Assembly: GCA_001692895.1 (NCBI GenBank) | Contig: KV748218.1 | Span: forward strand, 1,178,001-1,242,000 | Origin: Cenococcum geophilum 1.58 | Taxonomy: Eukaryota; Ascomycota; Dothideomycetes; Gloniales; Gloniaceae | Direction: 5' to 3' | DNA length: 64,000 nucleotides | Shown: positions 20,031-57,895 of the stretch, piece after piece | Position numbering within the stretch: the first letter of the stretch is position 1 | How the letters are laid out: every line of letters begins with the position of its first letter | The notes under the pieces: generated by a model | Told to the model about the DNA's origin: nothing | Databases searched by the model: none | What the model saw: the letters and a program-made list of their open reading frames with translations, nothing else | Made by a program: the position numbers and the translations under genes

Positions 20031-20039
20031 ATAACAAAA

Positions 20040-26986: not shown

Positions 26987-29009
<2,023 letters not shown>

Positions 29010-35100: not shown

Positions 35101-35856
35101 TATTAACCACTAAGCCCCTAACTATTTAGTTATATAATTCTCTTGTTATTCCCTTCTCTTCCTTATATAACGTCTTATTCTTAGCAAGAGCTATATACCT
35201 TAAATTTAAATAGAATTTATATTATTCCTTTAAATCTTCCTTAAAGTCTCTTCGCGCCCTTATATTACATTACGTTAAAACAACTACTATTAAAATAGTA
35301 AACGAACTCAAACTTACCGCGTTAACTATAAGCATTATAGCCCTAGTTAAGGAATAGTTAACTATAATATAACAGTTCTTTACGGATGCCTTAGCCTAAT
35401 AGCGAGCGATATTAGAAGCTTAGTACTAGTAATTAATAGAAGCAATCCGCAAAGAACTCTGTAACCTTAAAGCACTTGCGTTAAAGACCCTAATAGTAAT
35501 ACCTATAGATAAAATTAAAATAACTATATATAAACCTGGCTTGTTAAATATAAACCCTAAACTAGCAACGGTAGCTTAACTTATACCTATAATAAACCTA
35601 GTACCTACTATAAAATCTAAAAGGCTCCCTAACCCTCTAATATTTAATAGAAATTAAAATAACCTACGTCCCTTTATAACTAAGCTCCATCTTAAACTTT
35701 TAATAAACTATAACTAATACCCTACTAAAGCTAGCAAGATTGGCTATAGAATATCTTATTTAAGTAAAGACGCTACATAAACTATAGACCCATTCTTCTA
35801 TAACGACACCTTTATTAATTTTAAAATCTTTATCTCTCTATTAGAATAAATATATA
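35101..35856 (+). mobile_element. Ty3/gypsy gag, first part, interrupted by the giant element
   Basis: The plus strand carries a gypsy gag start: blocks like NPLIFNRN, LRPFITKLHLKLLIN and KIGYRISYLSKDAT, which match the N-terminal capsid region of fungal gypsy gag. The frame runs into the TIR at 35,857 and resumes after 55,165. No 5' LTR was identified. Broken, with many breaks. Confidence 0.7.
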
Positions 35857-35877
35857 CGTCAGGAAAACGGGGAGTGG
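35857..35877 (+). repeat. Left terminal inverted repeat of the giant element
   Basis: Begins CGTCAGGAAAACGGG followed by GAGTGG. A GC-rich subterminal stretch with GGGGCCTGGGGCTAGC lies at about 35,911-35,930, and a related GGGGCTAGC phrase occurs in the reversed right end. Confidence 0.8.
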
Positions 35878-36099
35878 CGTAGGAAATTTAGTTTCGCTAA
35901 AAGCGTTTTTGGGGCCTGGGGCTAGCTTTCCGCCATATTCGCCAAAGCCCAGAGCAATGCGCCAGCACTACGCTAGCTAAAAGTACAATACTCAAATGGC
36001 CATGGCTAAAAGAGCGCAATATTACACATATTGCAGCAATATGCCAGCTTATAGCTATAAAATAGACATTATTACTATTATTGCATTTATCGCAGATAT

Positions 36100-39000
36100 T
36101 ATATATCTTGCTATTATTAAAATCTATATTTATAATTATGCGTTTCTTTTACGGCTCTAACTCTTTACATATTTACTAGCAGCTTATTTACCTTTTAAAA
36201 GAAAATCCTTATTATACAATATATTAAACTAATTAAAATCAACCTAAGGATTAATAATAAAGCTCTAGGGCTCTAACCTAAGCTTTAATAGCACTATATA
36301 TGCGCTATAGAGCACCAATAAAAGGTCATAAATACAACGTCCACTAATACTTCGTTGGCACTTTACAAGAGATTACTGCCATAGCTCCACCTCTACTATA
36401 CCGTAAAAATTGTTTACCTGGCCTATATCTTTAAGACAAAGTAAATTAACCAAAACACCCGTATATTAAAGCCGCCTACCCTACAAGTTTAACCTCTCTT
36501 TGTCTATAACTATAATAATTAGTTAAGCTTTTCCAGGAAGTATACCACTAAAAGGGTATATCTGCCCAGAAATAGCAGTTTGCGTATACTCTTACACCCA
36601 TAAATAGTCTTATCTCCATTTACCTTAGCTCTACCAATTATATACGCATTAGATAAACTCTTTAGCCATAAAATCTAGGTTCTTTTTATCCCACTTTCAA
36701 TATTATACTAAGTTATAGATGCACATAAAGTATAAGCCTACTTTAGAAGAATCCTCTTCTCTACAATTTATTTAAATATTAGTAGTAGAGGTTCTATCCT
36801 GCTTATTATAATTCTTTTATAAAAACACAGCTAGTGCTTTAATAAAACCAGAAAGCCCTATTTTATTTTTAACTTAATATACCTAGCGCCATATTTTAAT
36901 TGGGATACTAGCCTCTTTCGCTATATATCTATCGTCCTAGTTAATAAACCAGCCTATATTAGTTAGGTCCACTAGTCGTGTTAGGGTTATAGCATAAACT
37001 ACCTTAGTAATATCTGCTGGCAATAAAGGTTTCGTCACTTTAAGTATACGGAGTTCTTCTATTGCTATTATTTAGAGGTACCGGGTATTATAATAAAGCA
37101 ATTACTCCTAGTAGTTAGAGCGCTTATTTATGCGGTTAAAGAATGCCTTTACTAAAAGTTTATGCATAACCTTACTATACTCAACGTCTATACTAGTAAG
37201 GCTACCTATCTCACGGATATAGTAGGGGTAGTAGGTAAAAGCATAAAGTTTTGGAATATTAAAGTGCCGTTTCTACATTACGTGGTATAATAGGCGAAAT
37301 CTAGAGAAGGCGGTTTTTATCTAGTCTATAATATAAAGTGCATATTCCATATACCTAATAGTATTATCGTTATATAAAGCGTATTATACAAGCATTATAA
37401 AGTCCAAGACTGCTTAAGTATATAGCATTACTTCCGTATATTCCTTTAGTATAAGGAGTACTAGTACCGCTATAAGCTATCGCATTATATCCTTCTAAAG
37501 ATAGCCCGTCTATTAACTAACCGATATAAATTCTTTAACCCGTTTTATACCAATAAATTCTAATATTTAACTAAATTATTTGTTTAGCACGGCATTAATA
37601 TAGTCTTCGATTAAACCCTACCACTTTAGTTACCCTTTTAATCGCTATAGTTTTGTATTTTTAAGTAAGAGATTCTTAGTCTAGTTAATTAGGTTGGTTG
37701 CTATCCCTTTTATAAGCTGGTGTAGTATGTCAGGAGTTATATATATATAGATATTTACTAAGTAATGCTTCTAGGTAAAGTTTTATTATAGGTAAACCTA
37801 AGTATTATCTAACTATTTAATATTCCTTCTAGATTGGAGCTCTATTAATTATCTTATGCTTATATAATTACAAAACTTCTATTTAGCCTAGAAATTTCCT
37901 TACTAGTCGGGCGGTATCTAGCATATAGTGTATTATTAAAGATTCTTTACACCTATAATTACGACTTGCTCCTTATAGTCTGCCATTATTAATAAGATAA
38001 TAGGGTAATATACTTTTATCTTTCCATCTATATAGGCAATATAAATACCAGTCTTTAAAATCATTTCTAGCGCTTAAGATGCTATTAGTTAGTAATATAC
38101 GGGTAGGTGGCTTAAAGCACTTACGGGCTAATATAAGTTCTATTGTAGTATGGTATACTTCTAATTTAACCTACCCCTTTATAACAGGAATAAACCTAAG
38201 TAATACTATACCCGGGCGTTTCTATATATAGCGAGTTCGGCTATCCAAGTTAAACACCAAAGCGTACACTAGATATATCGTTATTTCACCTTATTCGGAT
38301 AGTAAGGTCTTATTAGTCGCAATAACTAGCGGCACTATAGTAGCGCCCAGTAGAAGCTAGTCCTACTAATACTACTAACGGTTGCTAGTGTGAACTTCCA
38401 TATATATCCGTAAATTATTATCATTAAATAGTCAGACTGGGGCGTATGTAAGATTTAGGGCGAATAGCCGGTGGCCTAGTAAGAACTATAGTACCTATAC
38501 AATATTTCTGTATTAGATATAGTATTTAGTCTATTTAATTAAATCCTTTCCTTTATTAACTTACAACGTGCATTCTTTTTATTTTTTAGGCATAATAGCC
38601 TAGTTTAATTAATTATATCTCTAAAATAAGTCGTTTAAGTTCTTTATAGATATCTGATCTTATAGTAGCAGAGCAAGCCGGGGGTCTCGTAGAAATCAAT
38701 CAATAGCCCCCTATAACACTTTTTCTTAGACAAAGAATAGGGCAAGTGTATACTCTACTTTACTTTAAAATAGGTAGAATTTAGTTCTGCCGTTATTAGG
38801 TAGATTAGGGCATTGCTAATACAGCCACGTCTTGTCTTTAGTCGCATAGTATTACACTAGTTCACTAGCACCTCTCCTAGTAACCTCTATATAGCCTTCT
38901 ATCCTAATAGATATTGCAGTTAATAACAATCCTCTCTCTTATAGGGGGGGTTTCGGTTAGTTAATAGAGGTCTCTATAGTAGGTACCTCACAGCATATAG

Positions 39001-39400
39001 CCTAGTCGTTTAATAGTGGGGTAGATATCCCTTTAGTAGTAATAATTACTATATTATTATTGCGCAATATAAAGCCCTCGTCTTTAGAAGATATTTATCG
39101 GTTACAGTTAACAATTTCCAGTATATTATCAAATCCGTTATCAGCAGTTTAATAGTTAAATAGGACCGGTTCATTTCTATCCCTATATCTACGCCTTTTC
39201 TAAGGGTTACTTTGCCTTTAGATTTCATCCTTACATTTATATTTTATTTTATAATATTCCGCGCCGCCAGTAGAACATAGGATTGCACGGCATTGGCTAT
39301 ATCTTCTGTCTATAAAGTATACAGTAACTATTATAGATTTAGCTAGTGTTTACGGCTTATTAACGCTTAACTTACTCTTATACTAAGGTAGTAATATATT
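36100..39400 (-). pseudogene. Plavaka-type DDE transposase, degraded
   Basis: Minus-strand text carries several blocks characteristic of the Plavaka family (fungal DDE transposases). GATIVPLVIATNKTLLS lies near 38,300-38,340, followed by a VYALVFNLDSRTRYI-like stretch (family pattern GATIVPxIxxSDKTxL...VYLxxGNIxKxxR). IAYIDGKIKVYYPI and LMADYKEQ lie near 37,970-38,045 (family DGKxRxCYP...ADYPEQ). AVLDFIMLV, KRHFNIPKLYAFTYYPYYIR and VMHKLLVKAFFNRINKRSNY lie near 37,130-37,420 (family FNFPKLHxxxHYxxxIRxxG, then a conserved THKxxxK.aYxrTNkR). The order is right for one gene of about 1,000 codons. Stops are frequent throughout, and the N-terminal zinc-finger region was not resolved. The transposase lies next to the left end. 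Confidence 0.72.
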
Positions 39401-39769
39401 AAGCAGATACAATATTATTATTTCTAGCTTTATAGTTAGTAAGGAGTAGAGTAAATATATATAGAGGGTTTTTTATAAACTGTTTACGCGTGGAGTTTAT
39501 AAGGTATTATATAATCCGCTAATAATAAGACACCTAAAAATATAATATCTGCAATATTAATAACTAGAAATAGCCTATTTTAAAAAAGTTTAGGGGCCTA
39601 TAATTTATTACATGCTGCCAGCTCTATATTATAGTAATTCTTATAATATTATGGATATCTAACTTTTGTAAATCACCGACCTTAAAATCCTTGCCTTCTA
39701 TCTCCTATTAATACCACTAGATTTTAATTTCTTATAATTCTAGTTCTAGTGTACACTACCAAACCTATA

Positions 39770-40520
39770 CGTTAGTTTGGTTTGCAATATTATAAATATT
39801 AGCGTGCTGTATCGTATATCTAGGGCATACTATATATATAATAGTCACAATATCACCTCCTTATATCCTTGTCTCCTACCTCTTAGTAGGACCACCTAAG
39901 TTTTAGTTCCTGCGACCCCTAGCTCTAAAGTATATACTAGACCCGCGCGTTAGTATGGTTTGCAATATTATAAATATTAGCGTACTGTATTGTATACCTA
40001 AGGCATACTATATATGCAATAGTTATAATATTGCCTCCTCACAACCTTGGTTTCTGCCTCTTAGCAGCACCACCTAAGTTTTAGTTCCCTTAATCCCTAA
40101 CCTAGGGTATACTACTAGACTATTATATTAACATATTTTGCAATATTATAAATATTAACGTACTATATTATATACTTAAGGCATCTTATATCTGTAATAA
40201 TTATAAGCTTAACTTATTACCTTTTTACATCCTAGCTGCACCTAGCACTAATAGGTTTTACTTCCCTAGAATTTTAAATCTAGGGCATATTTACAGCTTT
40301 ACGCAACTATAAGATTCCGCAATATTACAGTTATTTAAGCATTGCGCCGTATACCTAAGGAATGGAATACGTGCATTGTCTATAATATCTAAATCCTTTA
40401 CCTAAGCTTTTAATCTATATCTTTTATATAATAATTATATTTTCCTAGAATCCTAGTTATAAGACACCTCTACCCTTAGGTAATTATACGTTTTCGCAAT
40501 ATTACCAATATCTAGGGTTA
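39770..40520. repeat. Tandem monomers (about 180 bp) with GCAATATTATAAATATT motif, array 1
   Basis: The block GCAATATTATAAATATTAGC plus about 160 following bases (including a CCTCTTAGTAGGACCACC-like phrase) recurs starting near 39,785, 39,962 and 40,140. More diverged copies start near 40,319 and 40,495. The same monomers form array 2 at 46,030-46,530. The array lies between the transposase and SNF2-like gene 1, which face away from each other, so it may be a shared promoter region. Confidence 0.75.
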
Positions 40521-40849
40521 GTGCACTTTTACTTTTACTTTTATGCTTATTTATAAAATTAATTTACCTTACTATCGCAATTCTGGCTTCTAGTCGTTTA
40601 CTTCTATAATATTTAACCTTTAACCTTCTCTTTTCTCTATTATATTTCCTACTATATTATAAGCAACTTATAAAATATTTTACTAACGGCGGTCTTCGTA
40701 TTATATCCTTTCTTATATTTAAGTTTAGTAAGTTATATATCTTAGTCCATTAGTGCTATACTGGTCTGCCTATTTGCTAATCACGCTAATTAATTATTCT
40801 AGAATCCGTATTTTAACCTACTGTTAGGGTTCTTCCCTTTATATAAATA

Positions 40850-43800
40850 CCGTTTAAGACGCCAAGACCGCTATCTAATTATCCTATAAGATAAACCCTA
40901 AGAGATTAAAACTTAAAGCGGTAATATTATAGGGAAGCTAGGACTAAGTTGGAAATATACTTAGCACTTATAATTATATTCGCGTTAAAGAATACGTTAA
41001 GTATAGGATATACGGCAATATAGAAGCGTTGGTATTTAATATAATTGCCGCCTTTAAGCAGTATCCTATTTAGCTGTTTATAGAGAGGAGCTGCTTAACA
41101 CTATCGCAGAGCGAAAATTAAAATAGTAAAAGGAGTAAGACTAGAATCGGTAAGCTAAAAGAGGGCAACACTATTTATAGGTAATAGGAATAATTCCGAC
41201 CTAGTGTCTTCTTGCTAGTTTAAAACACTAGAGCTCGCGGAGAAGCATTACTATAGTAAATTAAAAGCACCTCCGGCCAACGCCCTAAGTGGGATCTTAC
41301 CGCACTTTATTAAGAGTAAAGTAGCTCTATAGGCTTACTCCATAACAATATATACTAGTGCTGCTTATATTATTACCGGTTTTATCTCCGATTTATTATA
41401 AGGTAGAAGCCTTATAAGTCCACCTACTAGACACTAGTTAGCCTATATTAGGATAAGCTTATATTAATAGCTATCGCACCTAGTAGTAAGATTTAGCCTA
41501 TAGGCTTTAACACTAAGCGCCCTTATAATAACTATAGTCCCTACCTAATATAGGAAAAAGCTGGCTATTGCAACTAGCGACGCTATAAACTCTAGCTTAT
41601 ANATNCTAAAGCTAGAAGTCNAACTTCTANATAAGTACTTTATATTNTAGGTATTANAGCTTTTATAGNATATTACTAATATTTAAATCTAGTTATATCC
41701 TTATTAAATATATAGGTCACAGCTGGCCTATTTCCAACCCTAGATAGCATAACTTCTACGCCAATAACGCCTTAAACCGGTGTTTAAAAACCGGTCCCTA
41801 CTAGAATATCTACTAGTTCTAGTAATAATACCACCCTAACTAACCCGCTATTAATCCCCACCTATATTCCTAAAAATAGCAATTAGTCCACAGCTAGTAT
41901 TACTAAGATTACTACCGTTAGCAAAAATGATACTATAATAGGCGGAATATTTAAAAAGGGCAATGCTGATACTTATAAAAGTCAGCTATCTCCGCTACTA
42001 GCGTCAGTAGATACCCCCGAGCTGTACGGGATTAAGAAGATAGTATAATTAGAAAATAATCTAATAACTCTAGACAACGCTATAGACGTAGAGTCTACTA
42101 ATAGCAGTAATAATAAAGATAATAGCGCTCCCCTCCTTAGTAAAGATAATGGCGCTAAAAATAACTTTATAGATTATAAGAATAAAGGGGATATTAGTAA
42201 TCCTAATGCCACGTTTTTAAAATATATATATGTGCATATATCTCCAATATATCTAATATAGACGCTCTCTAAATTTAAAACTAATATTTATTTAGTTAAA
42301 ATTCTGGCTTTAGCTAAGCGATAAGGAAAGAATACGAGCATATTAACGAAAATTTATAGTTAGAGGTATGTAGATACCTCTATCTTAGTCCTAACGCCGA
42401 CCTTAACGCAGATAGCCTTTTATTGCCACTATAGCCGGTTACAAAATCCTTTAGGGAGAAAAAATATCAACTAATTGCCGCCTATTATTAGATTATATTT
42501 AAAGAAGATAACATTAATAGCGGTATACGCGCTAACTAGATAGGATTAGGCAAGACGGTAATTATAATTCTTGCCTATATACTAAACTAATTAATTATTT
42601 TTAATAAATAGGCCGTTTAGGATTCCTAAGCAAAAAAATATAGATTATATTTTACTTATTCCGAAGGGAAAGCTAAAAGCGCGTAATACTCCTTATAGGA
42701 TAGATTACAAAGGTAGTGTACCTATATTAGTAAGAATCCATATTCTAAATTTAAAGAGTTAATAGCCTAACGCTTCTTATAGCACTACCTAAACGTTTAT
42801 TAGCCTGGGTAAACGATATAAAAGTAGGGCTTAGTTATTAACATATTAAGGACATACGCAAATCCGTAGATATAAATAGTAAAAGGGATATTTGGTTTTA
42901 GCTAATCTATAATAATTATAATAAAATACACTACAAGTTCCTCTTTAATATTCTTAAGTACTATAAAAGTAATGTTATTTTTAATATAGATACCCCCGAC
43001 GTTAAATATTATACCCCGCTTATTAGCTTATCTAGATTTTATTATTACCACAATATTAGAGTATTTAAAAAAATCTCTTAAGTCCCCTAGGTATAAAAAT
43101 AACATAGACTATAAAGCCTAAAATACCCCGTTATATAGCACCATATACATCTTATCTAATTTCATTAAGAAGCGCTTAACCTAGAGCTAGTAGTCAATCG
43201 GCAGGTTTACAAAAATTGGCTAACTAGATAATGCCCTCGTTTAGTGATATTCCAGTACTCTAAAAGGCGCTATTTTTAGTAATCTTGGCGCCTTTCTAGG
43301 AACTCTATTAATAAGGCAAGGTGATAAATAGGAGAGTAAGCCTAGTTATAATCTGCCACTTGGTCCCAATGTCCACGTGCTATAGGGAAGTATTAATAGG
43401 ATAGTTAGGATAAAAGTAAAGCTAACTAAAGGTGCTAGGAAGAAAATATAAGAGATTATAAACGGCTTCCATAGTATTGTCCCCTAGTTTATTATTAGAT
43501 ATTTAATAAAGATAAAGTAGTTTATTAAGGAACTGCTTATTTAGATTAAAATAACGCAAACTAACCGGAACTCCTATACTACCTATAATCCCTCCACTAT
43601 AAAGCAGATAAACGAGGCCACTTATAACCTTAAAGCGGAGTTTAAGCCATTATATAGTAAGAAATTAGTCGGCTAGATATATAAAGTATTAAAACCATAA
43701 TATAAAACTATAGAATAATATTAGCTTAGTGTAGTATTATAAAAAGCCTTTATATCTATACCAGTTTTCCAAAATGGTATAATTAAAAGGATAAGGGTTA

Positions 43801-44300
43801 AGGTTTTAATATGCCTATTACACCTATATGCTTATTAAGACAAGAATAAATAAAATTATACCCTTAGCCGTTGCAAGAACCTTAATAATTTAATCCTTTA
43901 TGGTAAGTTAGACTCTTCTATACAGATAAGCCTAAGTGTGAATGCCTTAAAGACTATTCTTACTAAACTTTAGCCTACTCGCAAATGTAATCTATAGAAG
44001 TTAATTATATTCACCATATTCCCTATATTCGCATTTATAATACGCCTAGTATATTATATTTGCAATAAGCGCAATATTCTTATACCCCACTTATTGTTTA
44101 ATCTCTTAGATATAAATATAGTAAGAATACCTGCCGTCTTATAGCTAGCTAGATCTAGGTTAAAAGGGATAAAGTTATTATTAACGACTTTAACACTAAG
44201 GCCTACTAAGGCCTCTTACTTCTACCGGCCAGGATCCGTATAGTAACTCTTAGTAAGTTTTATTCTGCTAGTGTAAAATTAGTGACTTAGAGCTTATTTT
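40850..44300 (+). pseudogene. SNF2-family ATPase/helicase-like gene, copy 1, degraded
   Basis: Walker A reads IGLGKTVIIILAYILN at 42,540-42,590, inside a SNF2-type motif I context (family DExGLGKT). A motif I-upstream block precedes it, and a motif III-like block (degraded SGTP; then NLGAFLGTLL) lies near 43,230-43,300. The helicase C half follows, with KLIIFTIFPIFAFII, LLFNLLDINIVRIPA and a late TLTLRPTKA block at 43,990-44,220. The N-terminal 450 or so codons (40,850-42,300) are of unknown type and rich in N, S and K. It is paralogous to copy 2. SNF2 ATPases remodel nucleosomes or translocate on DNA; what this one did for the element is unknown. Many stops; ambiguous bases cluster at 41,602-41,670. 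Confidence 0.65.
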
Positions 44301-44569
44301 TAGTGTTATAAATCTAGACTTTAGAGCTGTAGATTAATTAATTAGTGTAGAGCCGTTATATTATAGTAAAGCTATATCTAGGCAATCTGCATTGTAATCC
44401 TTAGCATAGTGTTATATATAGAAATATTTAATTATAAGAATTAGGAAGGGGTTATATTTTAATTAAATTTATAAAATCACAACTAAAAGTCCTTGCGGCG
44501 TAGTGGTACGGTAAGTAATATAATTGCTGTAATTTAGAGCTAGCCCAATAAGATTAAAAATAGTTATCT

Positions 44570-44720
44570 CTAATATATATATATATATATATATACCGAG
44601 AAGCGTAACTTATGAAATTGGGCCTTAAGACTACTAAAACCCGCGTATTGGCACTTCTTATAATATTGCAAATATTAATATACTACGTTGTATGCTATAT
44701 ATGCAATATCTAAAATCTCG
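44570..44720. repeat. TA run and a single AATATT-motif monomer
   Basis: An (AT)n run lies at 44,573-44,595. AATATTGCAAATATTAATATAC at about 44,660-44,682 matches the head of the array monomers. A 64-codon frame at 44,688-44,882 is unsupported. Confidence 0.5.
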
Positions 44721-44899
44721 CCTACCGCCGGAGTTATGGTTTTTGTAACCCTGTATATACCTCTAAACCCACGCGATAGTATTTTTATTAAGTTTATTTC
44801 ATTTCTAATAGCTTATCGCACTACTTACGCAACTTTAATTGTTTCCACGTTATACACCGCCTACTTAAGATCCTTTAAATAGCCAAGATAGCAAACGCA

Positions 44900-45890
44900 T
44901 AGAGTAAAAGCCCTATCCCATCTTAATTTTAGGCATTTGCCGTTATAATCGCCTTAAAAGCTCCTTATTAACCCCTATTAGATTTTTATTAGACCGCCGT
45001 TTTATAGCTTACCCTTTAGCTTCTTAATCGCTCGGCCAGCCTCTCTATAACAATTATTAGCCATTAAACCGGCGTAGTTGCCGACGTCGCTTGCAGTTTA
45101 AAGAGCTGTCTATATTTATTATTTAGACAGATAAAGTTTTCTAAATACTATTAAGTCTTTAGTTTATAGCGTCTAGTTTAGCTATCTTAGACTCTTTTAA
45201 GTCCTTAAACTTGGTGTTAAGCTAGTTATACTTATGTTTTAGCGTAACTAGTTCTAGCAGCGCTTTCTTAATTTATTTAATTTCTGCTTTTAACTTATCG
45301 CGCTCCTTTATAAGACGGTCTTGCTTTATTACTTAAGCGTCCTAGATTAAATTAATAATGAATATATTTTAAGCCTTCTTAGCTTTTTAAAGTTCCTTAA
45401 TATTAGTCTTTAAACTCTTAATATTCTAGTAATTAGTAGCTAATGCAGTTTATAAAGTATTCTACTCCTCCTTTATACAACTAATTGTCTAACTTATAAT
45501 ATTAAAGAGGTCCCCCTTTTGTGGTTTTCTAGTTTCCGTAACAGCTATCTCTACAGCGCTGTTTTTATTTAACTTAGTTCTCTCTAGACTATATATGGCG
45601 GCATTTCCAGCGGCTAGTAGGACAGAATGGGTTTGCGAAGGCTTTTTAAGAGGTAGCTAAACTGTCTTCGTGGCTTTAGCTACCTTACTATTCTTCTCTT
45701 ACTTAATTAGAAACCCTCTAATCTCCTTTTAGTAACTATCCGCCGCCTTCTTCTTTCGCAGCTTTAGAGCTAGCTTTGTGGTTCCATCTCCGTTCTTTAA
45801 TAACGCCTTTTTAATATAGGGACGCTTAGTGCGCTTAGCTGAGGTAGCTATATACTTAAGTTTTTTATTTATCTATAATAACTAATTAGT
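44900..45890 (-). pseudogene. Coiled-coil protein gene, degraded
   Basis: On the minus strand the region reads as one protein about 320 codons long with scattered stops. A basic N-terminal part (ATSAKRTKRPYIKKALLKNG; LALKLRKKKAADSY) is followed by long heptad-like stretches rich in L, K and E (NIKSLKTNIKEL, VIKQDRLIKERDKLKAEIK, LLELVTLKHKYN). It lies between the two SNF2 copies and points the other way. I do not recognise the family. The predicted coiled coil suggests a structural or DNA-binding partner, but this is inference. Confidence 0.5.
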
Positions 45891-46029
45891 ATAAGATATT
45901 TATAACTCCTTACTAGTATATATACTATTGCCACGTTTACTTAAAATAGGTTAAGGGCTAGTGTAGTTAAGGCGAGAGGAAATTTATTCTAATATAAAGA
46001 GTAGGTAATAGATAGATGGATAAATAGAT

Positions 46030-46530
46030 GGATATATAGTTTATAATATTACAAATATCTATATACTAATTTATATACTTAGGGTATGCCATATATGCAA
46101 TAGTCGCAATATCGCCTCCTCGTAACCTTGGTTCCCGCCTCTTAACAGCACTACCTGGCTCTAGGGCATAGCACTAGACCTGTACGTTGGTATAGTTTGC
46201 AATATTATAAATATTAGTATGCTGTATCGTATACCCAAGGCATGCCATATATGCAATAGTTGTAATATTACCTCCTCGCAACCTTAGTTTCCGCCTCTTA
46301 ATAGCACCACCTAAGTTCTAGTTCCCCTAATCCCTAACCTAGGGTATACTACTAGACCATTACATTAATATATTTTGCAATATTACAAATATTAATATAC
46401 TATGTTGTATACTTAAGGCATCTTATATCTATAATAATTATAAGCTTAACTTATTACCTTCTTATATCCTAGCTATACCTAGCACTAACGGGTTTTACTT
46501 CCCTAGAATCCCTAATTTAGGGCACATCAC
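46030..46530. repeat. AATATT-motif monomer array 2
   Basis: Three monomers start near 46,040, 46,197 and 46,375, and closely match those of array 1 (for example GCAATATTACAAATATTAAT and the AGCACCACCTAAGTT phrase). It lies about 6.2 kb from array 1, upstream of SNF2-like gene 2, so array and gene were duplicated together. Confidence 0.75.
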
Positions 46531-46849
46531 CAGATTATTTTCATTTAATTTATTATACCTAGCTTAATATTGCTAATATTACGCGCAATAACTATTTATT
46601 TTATTTTATTTTAATTCTTAAATTAATTCACCTTACTAATATAATCTCAGTTGTCGGTTATTTACCTATATAATTAGTAGACCTTTTCTACCTTATGTCT
46701 TCTATTATAAGTCTACCATCTTACCTTTTTTATCCTAGTATAGATATCTTCTTACGCCGGATATTATTAAGAGGAGGCTCTTTATAATAACTTCTTAGGA
46801 AAGTAAGCTCAGTAAGTTAAACCATATAGGCTATTAAAGCTAAGCTAGT

Positions 46850-49800
46850 CTATCCTTTTACTATTTATACTAACCCGCTATTATAGGTCCTAAATTACAG
46901 CCCGTCGTTAATAATAAACCCTTATACCTGTATCCCGTCTAGTATGCCTTGGCTGCTATCTAGCTATTAGACGCAATAGTCTGTTAAGGTTTAGCAATTA
47001 ACGCGCTTAGGCTGCTTGCGGCTAAGGCCTAACTTTAAAAGATACTTAAGGAACATAGATATTTTAAGGCTAAATAATACCGCTAGACTAAGATCTGTAG
47101 CAATATAAAAGCAATTACACTTACTAAAATTAACGCCTTTAAGCGGTGTCCCAGTTAAACATTTGCGGGGAGGAGCTACTTAGCACTTATTATAAGAATA
47201 AAGTTAAATAAATTAAGAGTAAAATCGGAACCACTAAGTTAAAAGAGGCTAACTCTATTAATAGACGCAGAAGATAACTCTAACTTAATTTCTCTATATT
47301 TAAATAAAATCCGGAAAGGTTATAAGAGGTATTATTAAGTAAAACCGGAAATACCTAAAGCTAACTTTTATACTGGGATCTTACCATACTATATTAAGAG
47401 TGAAGTAACCCTATTAGCGTGCACCGTATATATATCTTACAGTTCTAATACTACCGTTATTTGGTTTCGTCTCTAAGCTATTATAAAAAATAAATTTTAT
47501 AGGTCCACTAATTAAACGCTAGATAGTTTATCTTAGAATAAGCTTATGTTAAAAGCCACTACATCTAGTAGCGCGTTTTATCCCGTTAACTTTAATACTA
47601 AGTATTTATAGAATAGCTTCGGCCCCATCGGGAATAAAGAAGAATTAGCTACTGTAATTAGCGATACTATAAACTCTAGCTTATAGATGCTAAAGCTGGA
47701 GGTCTAACCTCTACGTAAGTGCTTTATATTATAAGTATTGCGGCTCTTATAGTATATTACTAATATTAAAATCTAGCTATATTCTAATTAGATAGATGGA
47801 CTACATTAAACCTATTTTTAAACCTAAATAGCGTAACTTCCACGTTAACAACGCCTTAGACTAATATTCGGAAACCAGCTATTACTAGAAAATCCACTAG
47901 TTCTGGTAATAACGCCACCCTAACTAACTCGCTATTAATCTATACTAGTGTTTCTAATAATAGTAACTATCCTATACCTAGTATTACTGAGACTACTACC
48001 GTTGGCGGAAAGGATACTATAATAGGCGGAACCTCTAAGAAGGGCAATGCGGATACTTCTAATAGTTAACCACCTCCGCTACTAGCGTTAGCGGATACCA
48101 CAGAATACTATAAAATCGAGAAGATTATATAGGTTAAAAAAAATAGAATAAATATAATAAACGTAATAGAGGTGTTGTCTAATAATAGCAGTAATAATAA
48201 AGGTAATAATAATCCCCTTCCTAATACAGGTAATGAGGCTAAAAACAACTTTAAGGACTATGCGGATAATAAGAAAGGGAATAATCTTAATGCTATATTC
48301 TTTAGACGCATATACGTATATATATCTCTAATATATCTAATATAAATGTTCCCTTAATAGAAAACTAATTTTTTTTAGTTTAAATTCTAGTTTTAACTAG
48401 GCGATAAAAAAGGAATACAAACATATTAACGAAACTCTATAGTTAGAGGCATGTAGATACCTCCGTCTTAATCCTAACGCTAACCTTAACGCAGATAGCC
48501 TTTTATTACCGCTATAGCCAATTATAAAATTCTTTAGAGCGAAAAAATATTAACTAATTACCGCCTATTACTAAACCATAAACAAAAAATATAATATTAA
48601 TAGCGGAGTATACGCGAACTAGATAGGCTTAGGCAAGACAGTTACCATAATTCTTATCTATCTATTAAACAGATTAATTATTATTAATTAATAGGCTGTT
48701 TAGGATTCCTAAGCAAAAAAAGATGGATTATATTTTACTTATTCTATTAGGAAAGCTAAAAATACGCAATACCCCTTATAGGGTAGCCTACCAATTTGGT
48801 GTATATATATTAACAAGAATCTATACTCCGCATTTAAAAGACTTAATAACCTAACGCTTGTAATAGCACCACCTAAAGCTCTATTAGCATAGAAAAAGAA
48901 TATTAAGTTAGTACTTAGTAAAAATTACTTAGCTATAATGTGTGAGAATATAGGCAAGAATAAGGGCACCACGGATATTTAGTTTCAAATCATACATAGC
49001 AACTACGCGGGAACGGCCTAGGAGTACCGGAAAAATAACCCTAAATTCCTTCTTAGCTATAAGGAGCCTAATTTAGATAACCCAAACAATATATCATATA
49101 ATCCTCCCACCAACTCGTCCCGCTTCATTATCGCTATAACTATTAGATATTAGAAATAACGATTCCTATACTCTCTAAGCGAGTTTTTACCTAGGACACG
49201 CTATTGATTAAATGCAGTAGCATGGCTCCATATATTTCTTAATAAGTTTTATATTACTAAAAACAGCCAAACTTAGTTATAGACCATAACCAGAGAGCTC
49301 GCGATTTAGGCTTTACCGAATAATATCTATCTCTAGGGATATTCGGGCACCCCAGCAGGCACTAGCCCTAATAATCTTACTACATTTCTATAAACCTTAG
49401 CAATAGGGCGGGAGAAAGAATAGGCAGAAAAGCCTAATTGTAAACTGTTACTCGGTCCTAATATCCATGCGCTATAGGTAAAAATAAATAAAATAGTTTA
49501 AATAAAAGCTAAGCTATTAAAAAAGGCTAAGAAAAAAATAGGGGCCATTATTAACGGTTTTCGTAACGTTGTTTCGCAATTTATAATTAGGCGCTCTATA
49601 AATACACAATAGTTTAATAACAAACCATTAATTAAAATTAACGTACAAAGAGTAGACTAGAATATTCACGTTAAGTATATACCTAAGGTCTTAAAGCGAT
49701 TAAATAGGGCCATAGATAAACTAAAGAAAGAGATTAATGCAGCATATAAGAAGAAATTAGTTAAGTAAAAGCGAAAAGGATTAAACGCTAATTAAAAACC

Positions 49801-50750
49801 CATAAAACTACACTAGTCTAGCTCTGCATTTGCCTATAAGCTTTAAATCTTTACAAACTTCCCAGAGCTATAACTCTAGAAAAATAAGGGCGAAGACTTT
49901 AATGTGCCTTTCACTGGCTTATTTTTAGAAGGTAATAAAAAAAAGGGCTATACGCTCAACTATTACAAGAACCCTAATCAGTCTATATTTAAGTAAAAAC
50001 TGCCTTCTATTATAGCTTTAAGTCCAAAAATAAATGCCTTAAAGACAGTTTTTACTTAGCTAGGGACTAACTGCAAAGGTCATCCTAAGAAGTTAGTCAT
50101 CTTTATAGCATTCCCGGTAGCCGCCTTTATTATTTATCTAGTACATCTTATCTATTTATAAAGCAATGTTTTTATATTCTAACGCTAGATTAGTATCTTC
50201 TTAATAGGTATAGACTAGGTAGCTACAAGTTAGTTAGTGGTAGGCTTAAGATAAAAGAAAGGGAGACAATTATTAAAGAATTTAAAAATAACCCTACTCT
50301 AAGATTCCTTATATTAACTACCAGCCTAATATCTAAAGTATATACTCTAATCGGAGTAAGTAAAGTGTTTATATTTAAGCCACAGCCGCTACCCGCAGTT
50401 AAAGCTTAGGCATTTAGACGTGCCTATAGGATTAGACAGCTAGAAGATAAAGTTATAGATATTAGGGCCGTATCTAGTAAGGTTAATATAGAGGTATATA
50501 TTTAGCAGCAGGCTAAAAAACATAAGATCTTTATACTAGGCGCTTTCTCTAGAGCGCTAAAGCATTATACTAAAAAGAAGCGCCTTTCTAGTGCTTTACT
50601 ACTTAAGATTACTTAATATATATTAGAACCGGGTTCCACTAGTAAGGTTATATAGTAGGGTATAAACGGTTTCTTCTATATACTTAACTGGCTTAATTAG
50701 TACTACTAGCTAAGCAGGTACTGCCTCTGTAGTACACTAATTATAATATA
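46850..50750 (+). pseudogene. SNF2-family ATPase/helicase-like gene, copy 2, degraded
   Basis: Walker A reads IGLGKTVTIILIYLLN at 48,623-48,670, and motif III keeps the text GYSGTPAGTSPNNLTTFL at 49,337-49,390, the SNF2 SGTP box. The C-terminal half runs past 50,100 with RPKKLVIFIAFPVAAFIIYLV-like text. It is collinear with copy 1 over about 3.4 kb, with the Walker A motifs 6,083 bp apart. Divergence is large, with insertions and substitutions beyond simple transitions, so the duplication predates RIP. Copy 2 extends further at the 3' end (50,400-50,620, KIFILGAFSRALKHYTKKKR). Confidence 0.65.
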
Positions 50751-50759
50751 TTTTATAAT

Positions 50760-52010
50760 ACCTAGCTCTAAGTATATATAATAAAGATATTACGGTTATT
50801 ACATATATATAAATATTATAAGAGAGGTAATAAATATAATATTTGCTAATATAATATATTACAAATATTATAAATAATCGGTAGATATACCTATTTAGGT
50901 TTAGCCGCTATATAACTCCTTTTCCTTTACGCTAACCCCTACTTAATTATAATAACCACCATAAACTACCTAATGACAATCAACAGCACTATACTAGGCA
51001 TTTACGCGCAAATGGAACAACAATCCAAACCTATATCGCTTTCTTTAGTATATAAGGCCCACGCAATAAAGAACTGGTTAGTAAAGTTTATCTACCTAGG
51101 TCTAAAAATTAATAAAATATTATATAGCGACATTTATTCTACTATAGAATAGGGACTTACAGACATTTAAATGCTTGGTTTATAACTAAATAAGGTTAGA
51201 AACTAGTTAAGACTTAATTAAGTGTTTCGCAGTATAATTAAAACATTTCTTACTATTTTTATAGGCATACCAGAACCTTAGCAGAGTAGGTGTCTATTTA
51301 TAATTGCCTAAAAATATAATAATAATCGGAAGCGTTAAGTGTTAGATAGAGTAATAACCCCAGCATAAATTAAGTCCGTTACGTATTATCTTAAATTAAC
51401 TAATATACGCCAACCAAGCAAAGAAGACCTAGAGTTAGTTACTTAGAATAGCCTTATATTTAGGACGGTGCAAACTAAAGTAGTTTATAAAGAAGATGGC
51501 CAGGAAATACTATATAGTTACAGATACTTTACGGCTAGTAGTATACTAGATAATAAAATTACGTCAACCGATCTAGACTTTAGTCTATTTACTAGCGTAC
51601 TCTTAGAAGATATTAGCTTTAATCCTATAAAATATGGAATTTTCTATTATAATAGCTGAGGAAGGGAAATAAAAGTTCTTACCGAACAAACCTAAAGGGC
51701 TGCTATAGATGAAATATATACTAAAGGACTTAATTATTTTTATTTTATAGTAAGATATAAAGACTAAGGTAAGATAGATTATATAAGCAATTTTAGCAAT
51801 ATTAGAAATATTCTAACGCATTTAAATAGGTATACTATACCCAGCCACTATACCTATATATATTAAAACTATTATACCATAAGCCGTTATAAGCAACTTA
51901 TTGTTAACGCTACCTAGAACACAACTAGAGTTAGAGAGGAATTATTCTAGGCCTAGGGGTTTAAGGGCATCCATATAGGAAATTAGTGGTATACTTAAAC
52001 CAACGGTTTC
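50760..52010 (+). pseudogene. Unknown element-borne ORF, partly readable
   Basis: From about 50,980 to 52,010 the plus-strand frame reads as one protein of about 340 codons with few stops per length compared with its neighbours. The longest clean stretch is 51,468-51,659 (63 codons: YKEDGQEILYSYRYF, SSILDNKITSTDLDFSLF, SFNPIKYGIFYYNS). Upstream, KAHAIKNWLVKFIYLGLKIN and LRLNQ-like text is helical. I recognise no domain. AATATT motifs at 50,810-50,875 precede it. Confidence 0.4.
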
Positions 52011-52279
52011 TATATATAAAGTAGAATTAGCGAGTAATAAATCAAAGCGGAAACGGGAGACCTTTGTCTAGCCTAAAAAAAAAAAACCAAGGGCCTAATA
52101 TTATATTTATATTATACTAACCATCTCGCGCACTATATTACATTTTATATACCTAATATTTCCAATATAGTGTTAATATATACACGGTTATACATATTAT
52201 GCTAGCTTGGCTAGATATACTAGATAGCTTAACCTAAGTAAGCAGGGCTTAAAATTAAAAAGCCCTTTTACAATTTTTA

Positions 52280-53100
52280 CTTTTCTCCTCTCTCTTATTA
52301 ACAATCTACATTGGTACTCTTTCTATGGGCCATTAAATATATCTTTAACACCAATATATTAAACCAACACTATTCTCTACTATAGCTAAATCATCCAATA
52401 TATAGGTTATTGCAGCGTCTAGCAGCTAGGTGCAACTTATATCCGCTTTATAGTAGTAGTATATAGCTAATAAGGTAGAGCCTACAGTCTTAGTAAAACT
52501 CGCGCATGTCTAAGGACAAATCCAATAGTAATAAGATTCCACTGTACCCCTATCGCACTTAAGACACTTATCGCTATAGGACTAATATAACTTAATATAA
52601 GCTTAAATCTGCTACCTATTCCAAGTTATTAGTTTAGAAAACAGTAAGGCCTGCACATCTAGCATATAGATTAACCATTTACCTGCGTATATAGGGTTAT
52701 TATAATATATTACCTAATAAACGCCATTATTAACTAAGCACTACTAAGGACGGAAGCACTAATAGTATAAAATAATTAAGATATAAACCAGAACTACTCT
52801 GGTAGGGGGTATAACAGCGGGCCGAGTTTAATTCTACACCCGCATACGCACCTATACTAGCCCACGCTAGGCTGCTTATATAGGCTATAGTTATAATAGG
52901 CTACTTTAATCCTTTTTATAGACTCTTTCTATAGCCAGAAAGATAGAAGTCGGGCGTTAACGTACTAATCATTAATGCTTGGCAAAAGGCTAGTTTAAAT
53001 AATTAGGGGCGTATATTTAACAATGTTCGGCCTCTACTTAAACTAAAAGAAGCTTATAGGGCAAGTCTCTAAAATCTATACCTCCTACTAGCAATATTTA
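52280..53100 (-). pseudogene. Degraded ORF with a possible zinc-binding cluster
   Basis: Minus-strand text near 52,570-52,500 reads DKCLKCDRGTVESYYYWICP, with cysteines spaced C-x2-C and a later C, an arrangement like the zinc knuckle after LINE reverse transcriptases (zf-RVT). Upstream text (KWLIYMLDVQALLFSKLITW) is helical. It could be cargo of the giant element or the relic of a LINE inserted in it. Confidence 0.4.
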
Positions 53101-53499
53101 AAGTACTGCTAACACAGTATATATCGCAAAACTATAGTTATTTAACTGCATCGGCGACTTTAGATTATATATTCTAAGTAATATTTATACAGTCATATAT
53201 ATACATTATCCGTTCCTTAATATACTGGATACCTAAGCTCTAGTCTTTTAACTACTTAAAGATAATATATTTATATACACATATCTAAAGCTTATAAGCC
53301 CTACTATATACTCCTAGAGTTTACCTACTAATAACAGAAGGGGAAATAACGATTCGCAGCACCTATAATCATTAAGTGTATTACTTAATGCTTTTTTAAC
53401 CTAAACTTAAAAGGCTTAACTTTACACCCCTAGATATCTAAGTATTTTTACTTACTTTCGGCTTACACTATTATACTAATTACTACTTATATTTAATAT

Positions 53500-54394
53500 A
53501 CACTCACTAAATATAAAGAGGGAGGTCCGCGGTAAATAGTTAAAGTAGATATAATAAGAGAACTAAACAGTACGAGCAATACTCTAATCTACCTATATAT
53601 TATAAGATATTAATTTATAAAGCAACGTACTATTAAATCTAGAAGATATAGGACGCGTAAGCTTCTAATAGAAAAGTTAAACTATTATAGGTAATAGCTA
53701 GTCTTATTTAGAAGTAGATATATAAGACTAGCAACCTAGTTAAAAATACGCATACAGTATATAATCCATATGTAGATAACACTAATAATTTAGATAAGCT
53801 TAAGCTATATATAACCTAGTACGAGTTTAAGTTCTTAGCAATAGATGGCTTTCCTATCTCTAGTAACAATAACTTAGGGCCTACTAGTTTTTCCTCTTTT
53901 GCTTATATAGATAAGGTAACGCTAGCAAAAAGTAAAAATTTAGTTTTAGATTAAAGAGTAAGCAAAAGCGCATTTCTAATTATTATATTAATAACTTAAC
54001 TAGGGCACTTTACGCTTAACCTTAGTCTCTTCGCCGCCAACAACTATAGACAGCCCGCCTATCTAAAACTATAAGGCTTTTTGCTTTAGGGTTACTTAGC
54101 ACTACAACTCGGATAATAAACCGTATATACTCAATATACTATATACAATAACACCAGATAGACTATAAAACTTACTAGGTGTTAAAAAAGAAGATTTTCT
54201 TTAGTATACTCTTAAAATAAAGGAAAAGCTACTAAATAATAGTAGATTTAACGTATTTTTAGAGTTTATACAGTAAAAGGGAAATAGCAATATTAAAATA
54301 AGGCTAGGATTGCCTAAAGATAATAACCTAGATATATAGTTACTTCCTCTAAGGTATATAGATAATATTTCACTTTCTAAAATATTATAATTAT
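53500..54394 (+). pseudogene. Unknown degraded ORF next to the right-end array
   Basis: Plus-strand text at about 54,130-54,390 reads LLGVKKEDFL, TLKIKEKLLNNSRFNVFLEF and RLGLPKDNNLDI, ending in a stop just before the 27-bp array. Further upstream (53,780-54,050) the frame is plausible but less clear. No family recognised. Confidence 0.35.
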
Positions 54395-55030
54395 TACGGT
54401 TATAAAAAATATTGCNATTATTGCAGTTATAGAAAATATTGCGACTATTATAGTCGTGGGAAATATTATAACTATTATAGTTATAGGAAATATTATAACT
54501 ATTGCAGTTATAAGAAATATTGCGACTATTATAGCTATAAGAAATATTACAACTAGTGTAATCGCGGGAAACATTATAAATATTACAACTATTGTAGTTA
54601 TAGAAAATATTACACTTATTACAGTCGTGGGAAATATTGCAACTATTACAGTCGTAGGAAATATTGCAACTATTGCAGTTGTAGGAAATATTATAACTAT
54701 TGTAGTTACGGGAAATATTACGACTATTGCAGTCGTGGGAAATATTACGACTATTACAGTTGCGGGAAATATTATAAATATTGCAGTTATAGGAAATATT
54801 ATAAATATTACAGTCGTAGGAAATATTATAACTATTGCAGTTATAGGAAATATTGCAACTATTGCAGTTATAGGAAATATTACGACTATTGCAGTCGCGG
54901 GAAATATTATAAATATTATAGTCGTAGGAAATATTGCAACCATTGCAGTCGCGGGAAATATTATAAATATTGCAGTTGTAGGAAATATTACAACTATTAT
55001 AGTTATAGGAAATATTATAATTTTAAGATA
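54395..55030. repeat. 27-bp tandem array, about 23 units, at the right end of the giant element
   Basis: Each unit has three 9-bp blocks with cores AAATATT, AACTATT and AGTTAT/AGTCGT. Units vary by C/T and A/G changes (GTTATA, GTCGTG, GTCGCG). Because the period is a multiple of three, both strands stay open for about 190-200 codons (54,456-55,058 plus, 54,377-54,943 minus). That gives low-complexity GNITTIAVV-type or IFPTTAIVV-type text, which I take to be non-coding. The array ends about 140 bp inside the right TIR. The AATATT core is shared with arrays 1 and 2. One ambiguous base lies at 54,416. Confidence 0.85.
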
Positions 55031-55143
55031 TAAGGTTGCTAAAGTGGCCCTAGGCTAGCGTAAAGAAGTGTATATAAGCAGATCAGCGGATCCAGCTAAA
55101 ATAACCCCAGGCCAGCCCCGGGCTAGCCCCTAGCTAGCCCTAA

Positions 55144-55165
55144 CCACTCTCCCGTTTTCCTGACG
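55144..55165 (-). repeat. Right terminal inverted repeat of the giant element
   Basis: Ends CCCGTTTTCCTGACG, the exact reverse complement of the left 15 bases. It is preceded by a GC-rich run (CCAGCCCCGGGCTAGCCC near 55,112-55,130) that partly mirrors the left subterminal sequence. Confidence 0.8.
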
Positions 55166-57895
55166 TAATAACACTAGTTGTAAATATATAGCTATTACTA
55201 AACTTAAAAACCTATAATAATAAAACCAAGACTTTACTAGCTTCTTTTTAGAATTTTTAGGCCTTATTAGTAAACTAAATTAGAATAAAGCTACTAGGGT
55301 TACTGCTCTCCATTAAGCTATTTTAGATAAAATTAGAGCATAGTTAGTAGGTAGAGAACTGCTAAAAGACTTACCCGAATTTGCTATAATATATTAACAA
55401 ATTAATAAAAACCTCTAATATATTAAGCAGACTTATTCTCTAAAGCTAACTATATCTTATATTTAAAACTTTATAGAACTAATATATACCTTAAAGCGCG
55501 ATTCGTCTCTAAGACCTAAAAGCCCTATATATAACCCTATAGACCTTAACGCTACTTAATCCTATACACCCTTAGGAACTAANNAANNAAGAANATAAGC
55601 CNNAAATNGAGAATNTTTTNGATATANAAAAAAGNGATATATTTANAGNGATTACNAAANTTACCCTTTTAAAAAGGTCCGCCGTAGCTCCTCTTAGTCC
55701 TTAAGTCGCACTTATTTCACAAATTATACTTATTCTATAAATTATACTTAGTCGCTATAAAGCATTTTACCTTTAATTAATTTAGAAAATAAATTATCCT
55801 AGGGCCAAGTCGCGCCTTAGGATAAAAAGTAGAAGAGTATAAGTGTTTAGGCTCTTCTAGCGCTAATATATAACACAACTTCCTTAATATACTTAGCGAA
55901 ATTTAAATACTTAGAAAATAGCAGAGCTACTAGTATAGGCTTTATTAATATAAACTACGCGGGGACTTAATACTTGGGTTTGGGGAAACTTAATAAGCCT
56001 TAAGGCCTATAAGGCTTTAATAGCAAGCCTTTAATATATAGTAAATTAACGCACTACACTCTTATAAAGATACGGATAAGCAAATACCTTAAATATATTT
56101 CCCTATTTATAACACCCTTAAAGTATTATAAGGTAATACTTAGATATAAATAGCTAAAATAATATAACCCTTTAATTAGCTAGGTTAAAGAAATACTAAA
56201 ATTCCGTATAACCTACTGCCGAAGTTATTACTTAAAATATTACTTGCCCTATAAACATATATATAACTATTTAAATTTAATATAATATAAATTGCCCTTA
56301 CTATAAACCCTAAACCAATATAATAAAGTTATAACTACTAATTGCGGTAAAGAATGCGAAGATAATATATTAAAACCCCTTAAAATTTATATAGTATAAG
56401 CCGCACCCTTTTATTTATTAGCAAGAAAATAAAACTATAAGATCTTTACTATAACACTAAAAGATATTAAGAAGGCGTTGGAACTAAAGCAATATATTAA
56501 CCCCTAACCTCTTATACCTAAAGAATATTATAATCTAATTAATACGTTTAAGAAACGATTCGTAAACTAATTACCCCTACATTAAGATAAGCACAATTTT
56601 AAGATAGAACTTAAACCTAGTATAATGCCAAAGTTCGGCCTATTATATAGTATATTATAAGAAGAGCTACTTATAATGCGATAATACCTCAAAAAACACC
56701 TAGAGAAAGGATTTATTTGCCCTAGTTAATTACTATTTACCTTATTTATACTATTTATTAAGAAACCTAAAGGAGGCTTAAGGTTTTATATTAATTATTA
56801 AACCCTAAATATAATTACAATTTAAAACCAATATCTAATTCCTCTGCTTTAAGAAACGCTTAACTACTTAGTAAAAGTATAATACTTTATAAAGCTTAAC
56901 GTAGTCGCTACCTTTAATTAAATCTGTGTTTATAAAGGAAATAAGAAGTATATAGCTTTCTGTATATAATAGGGACTTTTTAAATACCTAGCAATGCTAT
57001 TTAGTATAAAGAATGGTCCTGGTATATTTTAGTAATATATTAATAATACACTTCGCGAATTCCTTAATGTATTTATTACTACATATATTAATAATATTTT
57101 TATTTATTTATTTTTACTTTCTAAGCATTAGAAGCACGTCTAAATAGTCCTTAAACGCCTATAAGACGCGGGCTTATAATATAACATTAAGAAATACAAG
57201 TTCTATGTGCCTAAAGTTACATACTTAGGCCTAATTATATCCTATAACGGAATTAAAATAGACCCTAAGAAAATCGCTATAATTATAAACTAAGAAAGTC
57301 CTAGTAGTGTATAAAATATCTAAGGATTTCTAAAATTTCTAAATTTTTATTATTAATTTATTAATCACTTTTTAAAAATTATTTAGCTATTAGTAAACTT
57401 AATAAGGAAGAATATAAGATTTAAATAGACTACTAAATACAAATAAGCTTTTAATAACCTAAAATATTATTTTATAACTACTTTAATTCTTACCTACTTT
57501 AATCTAAACCTTAAATATATTATTAAAACAGACCGTCTAAATTATATACTAGGAGGAGTATTATTATAATATAATAAGAACGGCGAGCTACGCCTAGTAG
57601 CCTTTCTCTCCTAAAAACTTACCCCTACTAAATTAAACTATAAGATTTATAATAAGGAACTGCTTATAATTATTANNTATTTTAAATAATAGCGTNTANA
57701 ACTTAAAGGATTNTTATNCCTAATACGCNTATTAANNGACTATAAAANCCTATAGTACTTTATAACTATAAAGCAATTAATATAACGCTAAATTTATTAG
57801 GCCAAATACCTTTTATAATTTAACTTTAAGATTATATATTAACCTAGCAAACTTAATTAAAAGCCTAACTTATTAATATAATAATTATAAAAATT
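55166..57895 (+). mobile_element. Ty3/gypsy gag-pol, continuation after the giant element
   Basis: Gag resumes in the same frame after the target TA (blocks TKLKNL, SFFLEFLGLISKLN, LVGRELLKDLPEFA). Reverse transcriptase follows at about 56,700-57,200 (PKGGLRFYI, YFIKLNVVATFN, LFKYLAMLF, INNIFIYL-like catalytic box). RNase H is at 57,500-57,840 (LAFFS-type, then KLNYKIYNKELLIII, TIKQLI). The element stops near 57,895, where a LINE unit begins, so integrase and the 3' LTR are missing. It is heavily broken. Ambiguous bases cluster at 55,583-55,657 and 57,677-57,748. Confidence 0.75.

Follow-up and report, generated by a model that had tools for sequence, protein, structure and literature searches.

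A 19.3-kb Plavaka transposon with predicted SNF2 cargo and RIP-like decay in the fungus Cenococcum geophilum

The 64,000-nucleotide stretch of Cenococcum geophilum 1.58 analyzed here (assembly GCA_001692895.1, contig KV748218.1, positions 1,178,001 to 1,242,000; hereafter, the window) contains a complete transposon of 19.3 kb at positions 35857-55165. The element is delimited by identical 15-bp terminal inverted repeats (TIRs) with TA at each flank, and both ends carry GAGTGG after the common terminal bases, shifted by one base. Between these ends lie a stop-broken transposase of the Plavaka superfamily, two tandem genes for predicted SNF2-family ATPases, and a weak match to the domain DUF6532 (Table 1). 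An original prediction, made from the letters of this DNA alone, had described the 15 terminal bases, the shifted GAGTGG, and the flanking TA, all of which are present at 35857 and 55165. It had also announced subterminal arrays; this holds for the right side, where a 27-bp unit is repeated about 23 times, whereas on the left a related motif is confined to one short stretch.

Table 1. Features of the element and its target site, in window coordinates.
Feature	Position	Strand	Basis
TA target-site duplication, left	35855..35856	.	end reading and empty-site alignment
Left terminal inverted repeat CGTCAGGAAAACGGG, then GAGTGG	35857..35871	+	end reading and end-pattern searches
Left subterminal stretch, related to right-end 27-bp motif	36018..36100	+	repeat families D3, D5
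Plavaka transposase, several exon-like blocks, stop-broken	36148..38572	-	Pfam and tblastn
178-bp tandem array, 2.4 copies, ahead of SNF2 gene A	39769..40199	+	repeat scan
SNF2 gene A, degraded	42321..44084	+	diverged tandem copy; 30-52% amino acid identity to P0001, three blocks
Array of 178-bp family, ahead of SNF2 gene B	46035..46490	+	repeat scan
SNF2 gene B, ATPase lobe, degraded	48404..50179	+	68% amino acid identity to P0001
SNF2 gene B, C-terminal helicase lobe	50182..50433	+	PF00271, 4.8e-4, under Pfam gathering score
DUF6532 domain	53320..53529	+	weak in window, E 0.0057, below cut-off
Right subterminal tandem array, 27-bp unit, ~23 copies	54380..55017	+	repeat scan
Right terminal inverted repeat	55151..55165	-	end reading and end-pair comparison
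TA target-site duplication, right	55166..55167	.	end reading and empty-site alignment

The ends of the element recur throughout the genome. When up to two mismatches are allowed, the 17-base end pattern TACGTCAGGAAAACGGG occurs at 277 places in the 177-Mb assembly (162 contigs), compared with five for a reversed control, and its recurrence is therefore not due to chance. The DNA that flanks the element is also repeated, and 12 loci of this flanking repeat were taken from 40 listed matches, one of the 12 being the window itself. When the window flanks are joined at one TA, they align straight through all 11 other copies compared, each of which has a single TA at the insertion site. These empty sites, for which the original prediction had proposed a search, bear out its view that the 19.3 kb entered as a single block. 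Its description of the flanks as gypsy gag is unproven, as a Pfam scan of the three plus-strand frames of one empty-site copy gave no gag match. The 2-bp duplication at the window site agrees with the 2- or 3-bp target-site duplication (TSD) that serves as a criterion for Plavaka.

Copies of the whole unit are found at other loci with different flanks. The window unit aligns from TIR to TIR with C11:509410-528702 at 91.7% identity, and in blocks with a copy on contig C51, which measures 20.8-21.0 kb depending on the choice between two left ends. Both alignments end at the TIRs, and the flanks differ among the three copies compared (window, C11, and C51). A wider view of the family was obtained from 100 of 145 left ends and 100 of 135 right ends (up to three mismatches), together with the window right end; joining ends less than 70 kb apart gave 70 pairs among the ends listed. 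Eleven of these rows represent eight large copies, window included, because three copies give two rows each, owing to two left ends 239 bp apart. The copies on C11 (19.29 kb), in the window (19.31 kb), and on C2 (19.34 kb) are the shortest of the eight, and a second C2 copy and those on C22, C51, C36, and C46 measure 20.67-21.03 kb each. Both SNF2 genes lie inside all eight large end pairs. The ends, the TA duplication at the window site, the empty sites, and the whole-block copies elsewhere establish that the unit moves as a block. The doubled left end itself is seen in five copies, on C51, C36, C2 (858 kb), C15, and C4 (5.27 Mb), so that the left end was probably duplicated once, in a common ancestor of these five.

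The remaining pairs comprise 57 of 1.34-2.31 kb, one of 4.3 kb, and one of 60.7 kb on C9, into which later insertions probably fell. In the 14 short elements read, 21-39% of the length is shared with the large element, at both ends, and the interiors are unrelated to it. Ends with unrelated interiors had been named in the original prediction as a finding that would speak against it; they occur in these 14 pairs (of the 57 short ones among the ends listed) and in none of the eight large pairs, all of which contain both SNF2 genes. Since the large pairs are uniform in this way, the short elements with identical ends look, by their sequence, like non-autonomous passengers. The short elements L014-L027 appear to have fewer RIP-like mutations (see below) than the large copies, and L016, the only one scanned for arrays, is made of many different small tandem arrays.

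The target-site preference of the family is less strict than the window site would suggest. TA stands on both sides of all 17 pairs first counted (the window, two other large copies, and 14 short elements), a count biased by a search pattern that began with TA. For an unbiased count, matches to TA-free end patterns were compared with the list of exact-TA matches, taken as complete up to contig C115. Of the exact-match ends, 38 of 65 on the left and 33 of 69 on the right have an exact TA before them, so that almost half of these ends have no exact TA outside, mostly jointly at both ends of a pair. Of 33 pairs whose ends both match the longer end patterns exactly, 18 have exact TA at each side, two have it at one side, and 13 lack it altogether; the sides thus agree in 31 of 33. 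Such agreement is what a 2-bp target duplication would produce if the site were frequently, though not invariably, TA, and the 2-bp target of the family may be variable.

The transposase belongs to Plavaka. In a profile comparison of the kind proposed beforehand, the Pfam Plavaka model PF18759 matches the minus strand at 38572-38174 and 38070-37696 (E values of 1e-15 and 7e-13, above the cut-off), and a profile search found 44 homologs, every one with PF18759. The placement of a Plavaka-type transposase at one end of the unit, on its minus strand, is thereby upheld. The exon-like blocks at 38524-38117, 37422-37054, and 36567-36148, located by tblastn with the better-preserved transposase of another family (L065), extend the match down to 36148. 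Of the 44 homologs, the closest uninterrupted one for the window family is P0003, a protein of 327 aa that shares 79% identity with the C51 copy and 71% with the window copy; it had no match in a PDB sequence search. Plavaka transposases are expected to have C(2)C and H(3-4)H motifs between the second D and the last E; for the window family, the sequences available for this comparison were degraded copies and one uninterrupted exon. In the genome as a whole, at least 123 Plavaka matches were scored from 266 candidates. The termini, CGTCA..TGACG, are one base off the CATCA..TGATG of PlavakaB, a comparison made with published termini. Viral contigs scanned with P0003 and with the SNF2 relative P0001 yielded no relatives.

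The cargo consists chiefly of the two tandem genes predicted to encode SNF2-family ATPases. Gene B occurs at no fewer than 14 full-length places in the genome, window included, and gene A, searched through a 0.6-kb part, matches at least 16 places. Single degraded copies give little in Pfam beyond a weak helicase C lobe, and a homolog search with one such copy had found no match; in the genome search, a copy of the window family at C4:5283598 matched SNF2-rel_dom at 6.6e-4. An alignment of 13 copies led to P0001, an uninterrupted protein of 592 aa and the sole protein found, which matches PF00176 at 1.7e-12 and shares 69% identity with the C36 copy and 68% with the window copy. By eye, P0001 contains the motifs GLGKT, DEFH, and SGTP. 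Comparison with P0001 and the helicase C-lobe match confirm the earlier claim of two SNF2 genes. The AlphaFold model of P0001, with a mean predicted local distance difference test (pLDDT) score of 30.4, was too low in confidence for a fold search. Further PF00176 matches, on C75, C71, C36 (7153 and 35817), C100, C72, C93, and C52, mark other degraded SNF2 genes, every one of them broken by several stops. Only the one on C72 (~27 kb) lies within 40 kb of a listed Plavaka match, and the set perhaps represents another mobile family with an SNF2 gene.

DUF6532 (PF20149) is more clearly seen in other copies than in the window. It reaches 25.1 bits in one scan and 23.1 bits in another for the C51 copy, and it is above the cut-off in the copies on C36, C42, C46, and C69, whose matching stretches align with 52.1-54.3 kb of the window. 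Genome-wide, 52 of 76 DUF6532 matches lie within 40 kb of a Plavaka match, and the other 24 have no listed Plavaka match within that reach. The pairs fall into distinct geometries: 14 lie 3.9-4.5 kb apart on one strand, 22 lie 15.5-16.8 kb apart on opposite strands (one of which, on C46, belongs to the window family), and 16 are at other distances. DUF6532, a domain of unknown function, thereby gains a likely role as a partner of Plavaka. The single paper found to mention this domain names it, in the part available, merely in a domain list.

Every large copy that was read is degraded by mutation resembling repeat-induced point mutation (RIP). Among twelve copies of SNF2 gene B, 703 sites vary, comprising 325 C/T, 350 G/A, and 28 other differences. 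The base that follows is A at 144 of the 325 C/T sites, compared with 90 of 406 for any C in the window copy, and T precedes 124 of the 350 G/A sites against a baseline of 32 of 364. The pattern is RIP-like. RIP is described as a process of Pezizomycotina (PMC12730594), and this decay is the chief indication from the DNA that the host is an ascomycete. Uninterrupted relatives of the degraded genes, P0001 and P0003, exist in public data.

Other Plavaka families in the genome are associated with a different domain, ZNFX1. Fifty-eight of the 65 genomic ZNFX1 matches lie within 40 kb of a Plavaka match, all 58 on the same strand; 29 are 10.8-11.7 kb upstream of the transposase, nine are 3.0-3.4 kb downstream, and 20 are at other distances. 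No genomic ZNFX1 match falls inside the eight large copies of the window family. A C16 copy of the opposite-strand DUF6532 family has a ZNFX1 domain (1.8e-9) beside DUF6532, within a second Plavaka element of ~19.5 kb (C16:946372-965895; L049, L050, and L063). Its ends, CGGCAAAATATT and CGGGAAAATATT, are unlike the window TIRs, and the AT outside both ends of the one copy read could either belong to the ends or represent a 2-bp duplication. On the left, homology to 37 other genomic places starts at query bases 1060-1071 (two of the 37 are split, with the main piece from base 1250), and at two more places the match is limited to bases before 1070; on the right, query base 600 is where a flanking repeat sets in again. 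These limits bound the element at ~19.5 kb. The C51 transposase exon is 34% identical to that of L065 and 29% identical to that of the C16 element.

L065 (C30:1710000-1719999) is the top-scoring genomic Plavaka match, at 230 bits, with open frames at 2370-3122 and 3639-4229. It has a ZNFX1 domain without stops at 6311-6631 (3.8e-32), 3.4 kb downstream of the transposase on the same strand. A third Plavaka family, represented by C32:1226400-1235399 (L064), spans ~8.3 kb between inverted repeats of ~340-360 bp with 80% identity, and its transposase and DUF6532 are on the same strand.

These observations are best accommodated if positions 35857-55165 hold a complete copy of a large cut-and-paste Plavaka transposon, inactivated by RIP-like mutation and carrying cargo related to chromatin or silencing, a reading to which we assign a probability of roughly 0.75. 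Under such a reading, the element's own DDE-type transposase would act on the ends and arrays, the block would be excised by a cut-and-paste reaction, and insertion would occur at TA, with the duplication that is seen at the window site. The two SNF2 ATPases and the DUF6532 protein encoded between the ends would be carried along, and the SNF2 proteins may remodel or open the chromatin of the element, allowing it to escape silencing. By analogy with Hrr1/ZNFX-1 and with elements that carry TET/JBP cargo, keeping chromatin open against silencing is tentatively the most likely role for SNF2.

Several points weigh against this reading. The genes are broken in the copies read, among which no intact copy was found in this genome. 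The function proposed for the cargo is an inference. DUF6532 in the window scores 17 bits, under its gathering score of 24, and exact TA is absent from many family ends, as counted above. PDB sequence searches with the degraded window copy, A1, and P0001 gave no match for the SNF2 proteins, so that no subfamily is assigned. The ZNFX1 parts of L065 and the C16 element show no helicase core by eye, and this cargo may be a mere fragment. The empty-site test is independent of the biased TA count.

The 19.3-kb unit might alternatively be a nest of unrelated transposons within a small Plavaka element that never moved whole. Short elements with identical ends do exist, and the 60.7-kb pair on C9 has probably been stretched by later insertions, but the same interior between the same ends at several loci and the clean empty sites of the window make a nest very improbable. 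The differing flanks of the three compared copies speak against the variant in which a nest was spread by segmental duplication. Nesting was rejected on the basis of the block alignments of copies, the presence of SNF2 in all large pairs, and the empty sites.

The remaining alternatives concern the purpose of the cargo. SNF2 and DUF6532 could belong to the transposition machinery, as ATP-powered helpers in building or taking apart the complex of transposase and DNA on long elements, rather than countering silencing. Several families and geometries pair DUF6532 with Plavaka, as expected of an accessory protein, and both SNF2 genes are present in all eight large end pairs; however, the Plavaka elements on C16 and C32 gave no match when searched for SNF2 with P0001 at 1e-3, and SNF2 seems dispensable for Plavaka generally. 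We consider a helper role unlikely. SNF2 would have no part in the life of the element if it were passively captured host DNA or, like the cargo of Starships, of service to the host. Gene capture by DNA transposons occurs, and the ZNFX1 piece resembles a fragment, yet SNF2 has an uninterrupted public relative of 592 aa with GLGKT and a DEFH box, and the duplicated gene has kept both copies in all eight large end pairs. This explanation, too, we regard as improbable. Beyond the window family, it is possible, if doubtful, that several Plavaka families in this RIP-active fungus have reached ~20 kb through the uptake of host silencing genes as anti-silencing kits, with SNF2 in one family and a module of the Hrr1/ZNFX1-type RNA interference (RNAi) helicase in others, often together with DUF6532. 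Such kits would be a counterpart to the TET/JBP transposons.

Most giant transposons with cargo that are known from filamentous fungi are Starships. Like these, the window element is large, mobile, and cargo-carrying. Starships, the giant transposons of Pezizomycotina, are described as classified by their tyrosine recombinase, whereas the window element is bounded by TIRs and a TA duplication, and the only recombinase found in it is the Plavaka transposase. No tyrosine recombinase appeared in Pfam scans of six frames of 39.7-54.4 kb and of the minus strand of 35.9-39.7 kb, where decay lowers sensitivity. Since a TIR-bounded Plavaka of ~20 kb transports SNF2 genes as a block, and another one of comparable size in this genome bears a ZNFX1 domain, Plavaka also qualifies as a cargo vehicle.

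Plavaka, a member of the CMCT clade, has a TSD of 2 or 3 bp and termini of TGT..ACA (PlavakaA) or CATCA..TGATG (PlavakaB; Kojima, 2025; PMC12730594). The window element resembles the PlavakaB lineage as described there in its PF18759 transposase and its 2-bp TSD at the window site, and its termini are one base off those of PlavakaB. It differs from the known Plavaka elements of that account in the size of its family (~19-21 kb) and in carrying SNF2 and DUF6532 instead of TET/JBP. Extra genes are already known in the superfamily, namely TET/JBP in two Agaricales species, and the same source reports a screen of Ascomycota for TET-bearing elements that, in the text available, names Helitron and IS3EU and no Plavaka, other cargo being outside that screen (PMC12730594). 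No paper listed in a literature search contained both Plavaka and SNF2, the latter term being absent from all six papers listed.

Fungal KDZ, IS3EU, hAT, Helitron, and some Plavaka elements carry TET/JBP genes that are thought to counter methylation or epigenetic silencing (PMC12730594). The window element likewise carries genes with a proposed anti-silencing role, but its cargo is an SNF2 ATPase, or a ZNFX1 domain in the sister families. Tet_JBP (PF12851) had no match in the element scans or in the genome search, whose control gave no match either, so that its absence is unproven. SNF2_N domains are also reported in fungal host-transposon fusion proteins such as SHREC/Mit1 (PMC10799480). Both cases tie SNF2 domains to transposon-derived sequences in fungi; the window genes differ in lying inside a mobile element with ends, and the main text of that report names neither Plavaka nor KDZ. 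Hrr1 is the fission-yeast orthologue of ZNFX-1 and works with RNA-dependent RNA polymerase (PMC9276528). The piece of an RNA-silencing gene in the sister elements suggests, without proof, that such Plavaka elements carry tools against host silencing. If the cargo does counter silencing, transposons would have recruited chromatin and RNAi factors besides TET enzymes, an idea made testable by the uninterrupted public relatives.

Outside the element, positions 20000-29000 of the window form a GC-rich island (50-54%) among AT-rich stretches. The open reading frames in this island, at 22958-23629 and 26987-28171, are probably host genes.

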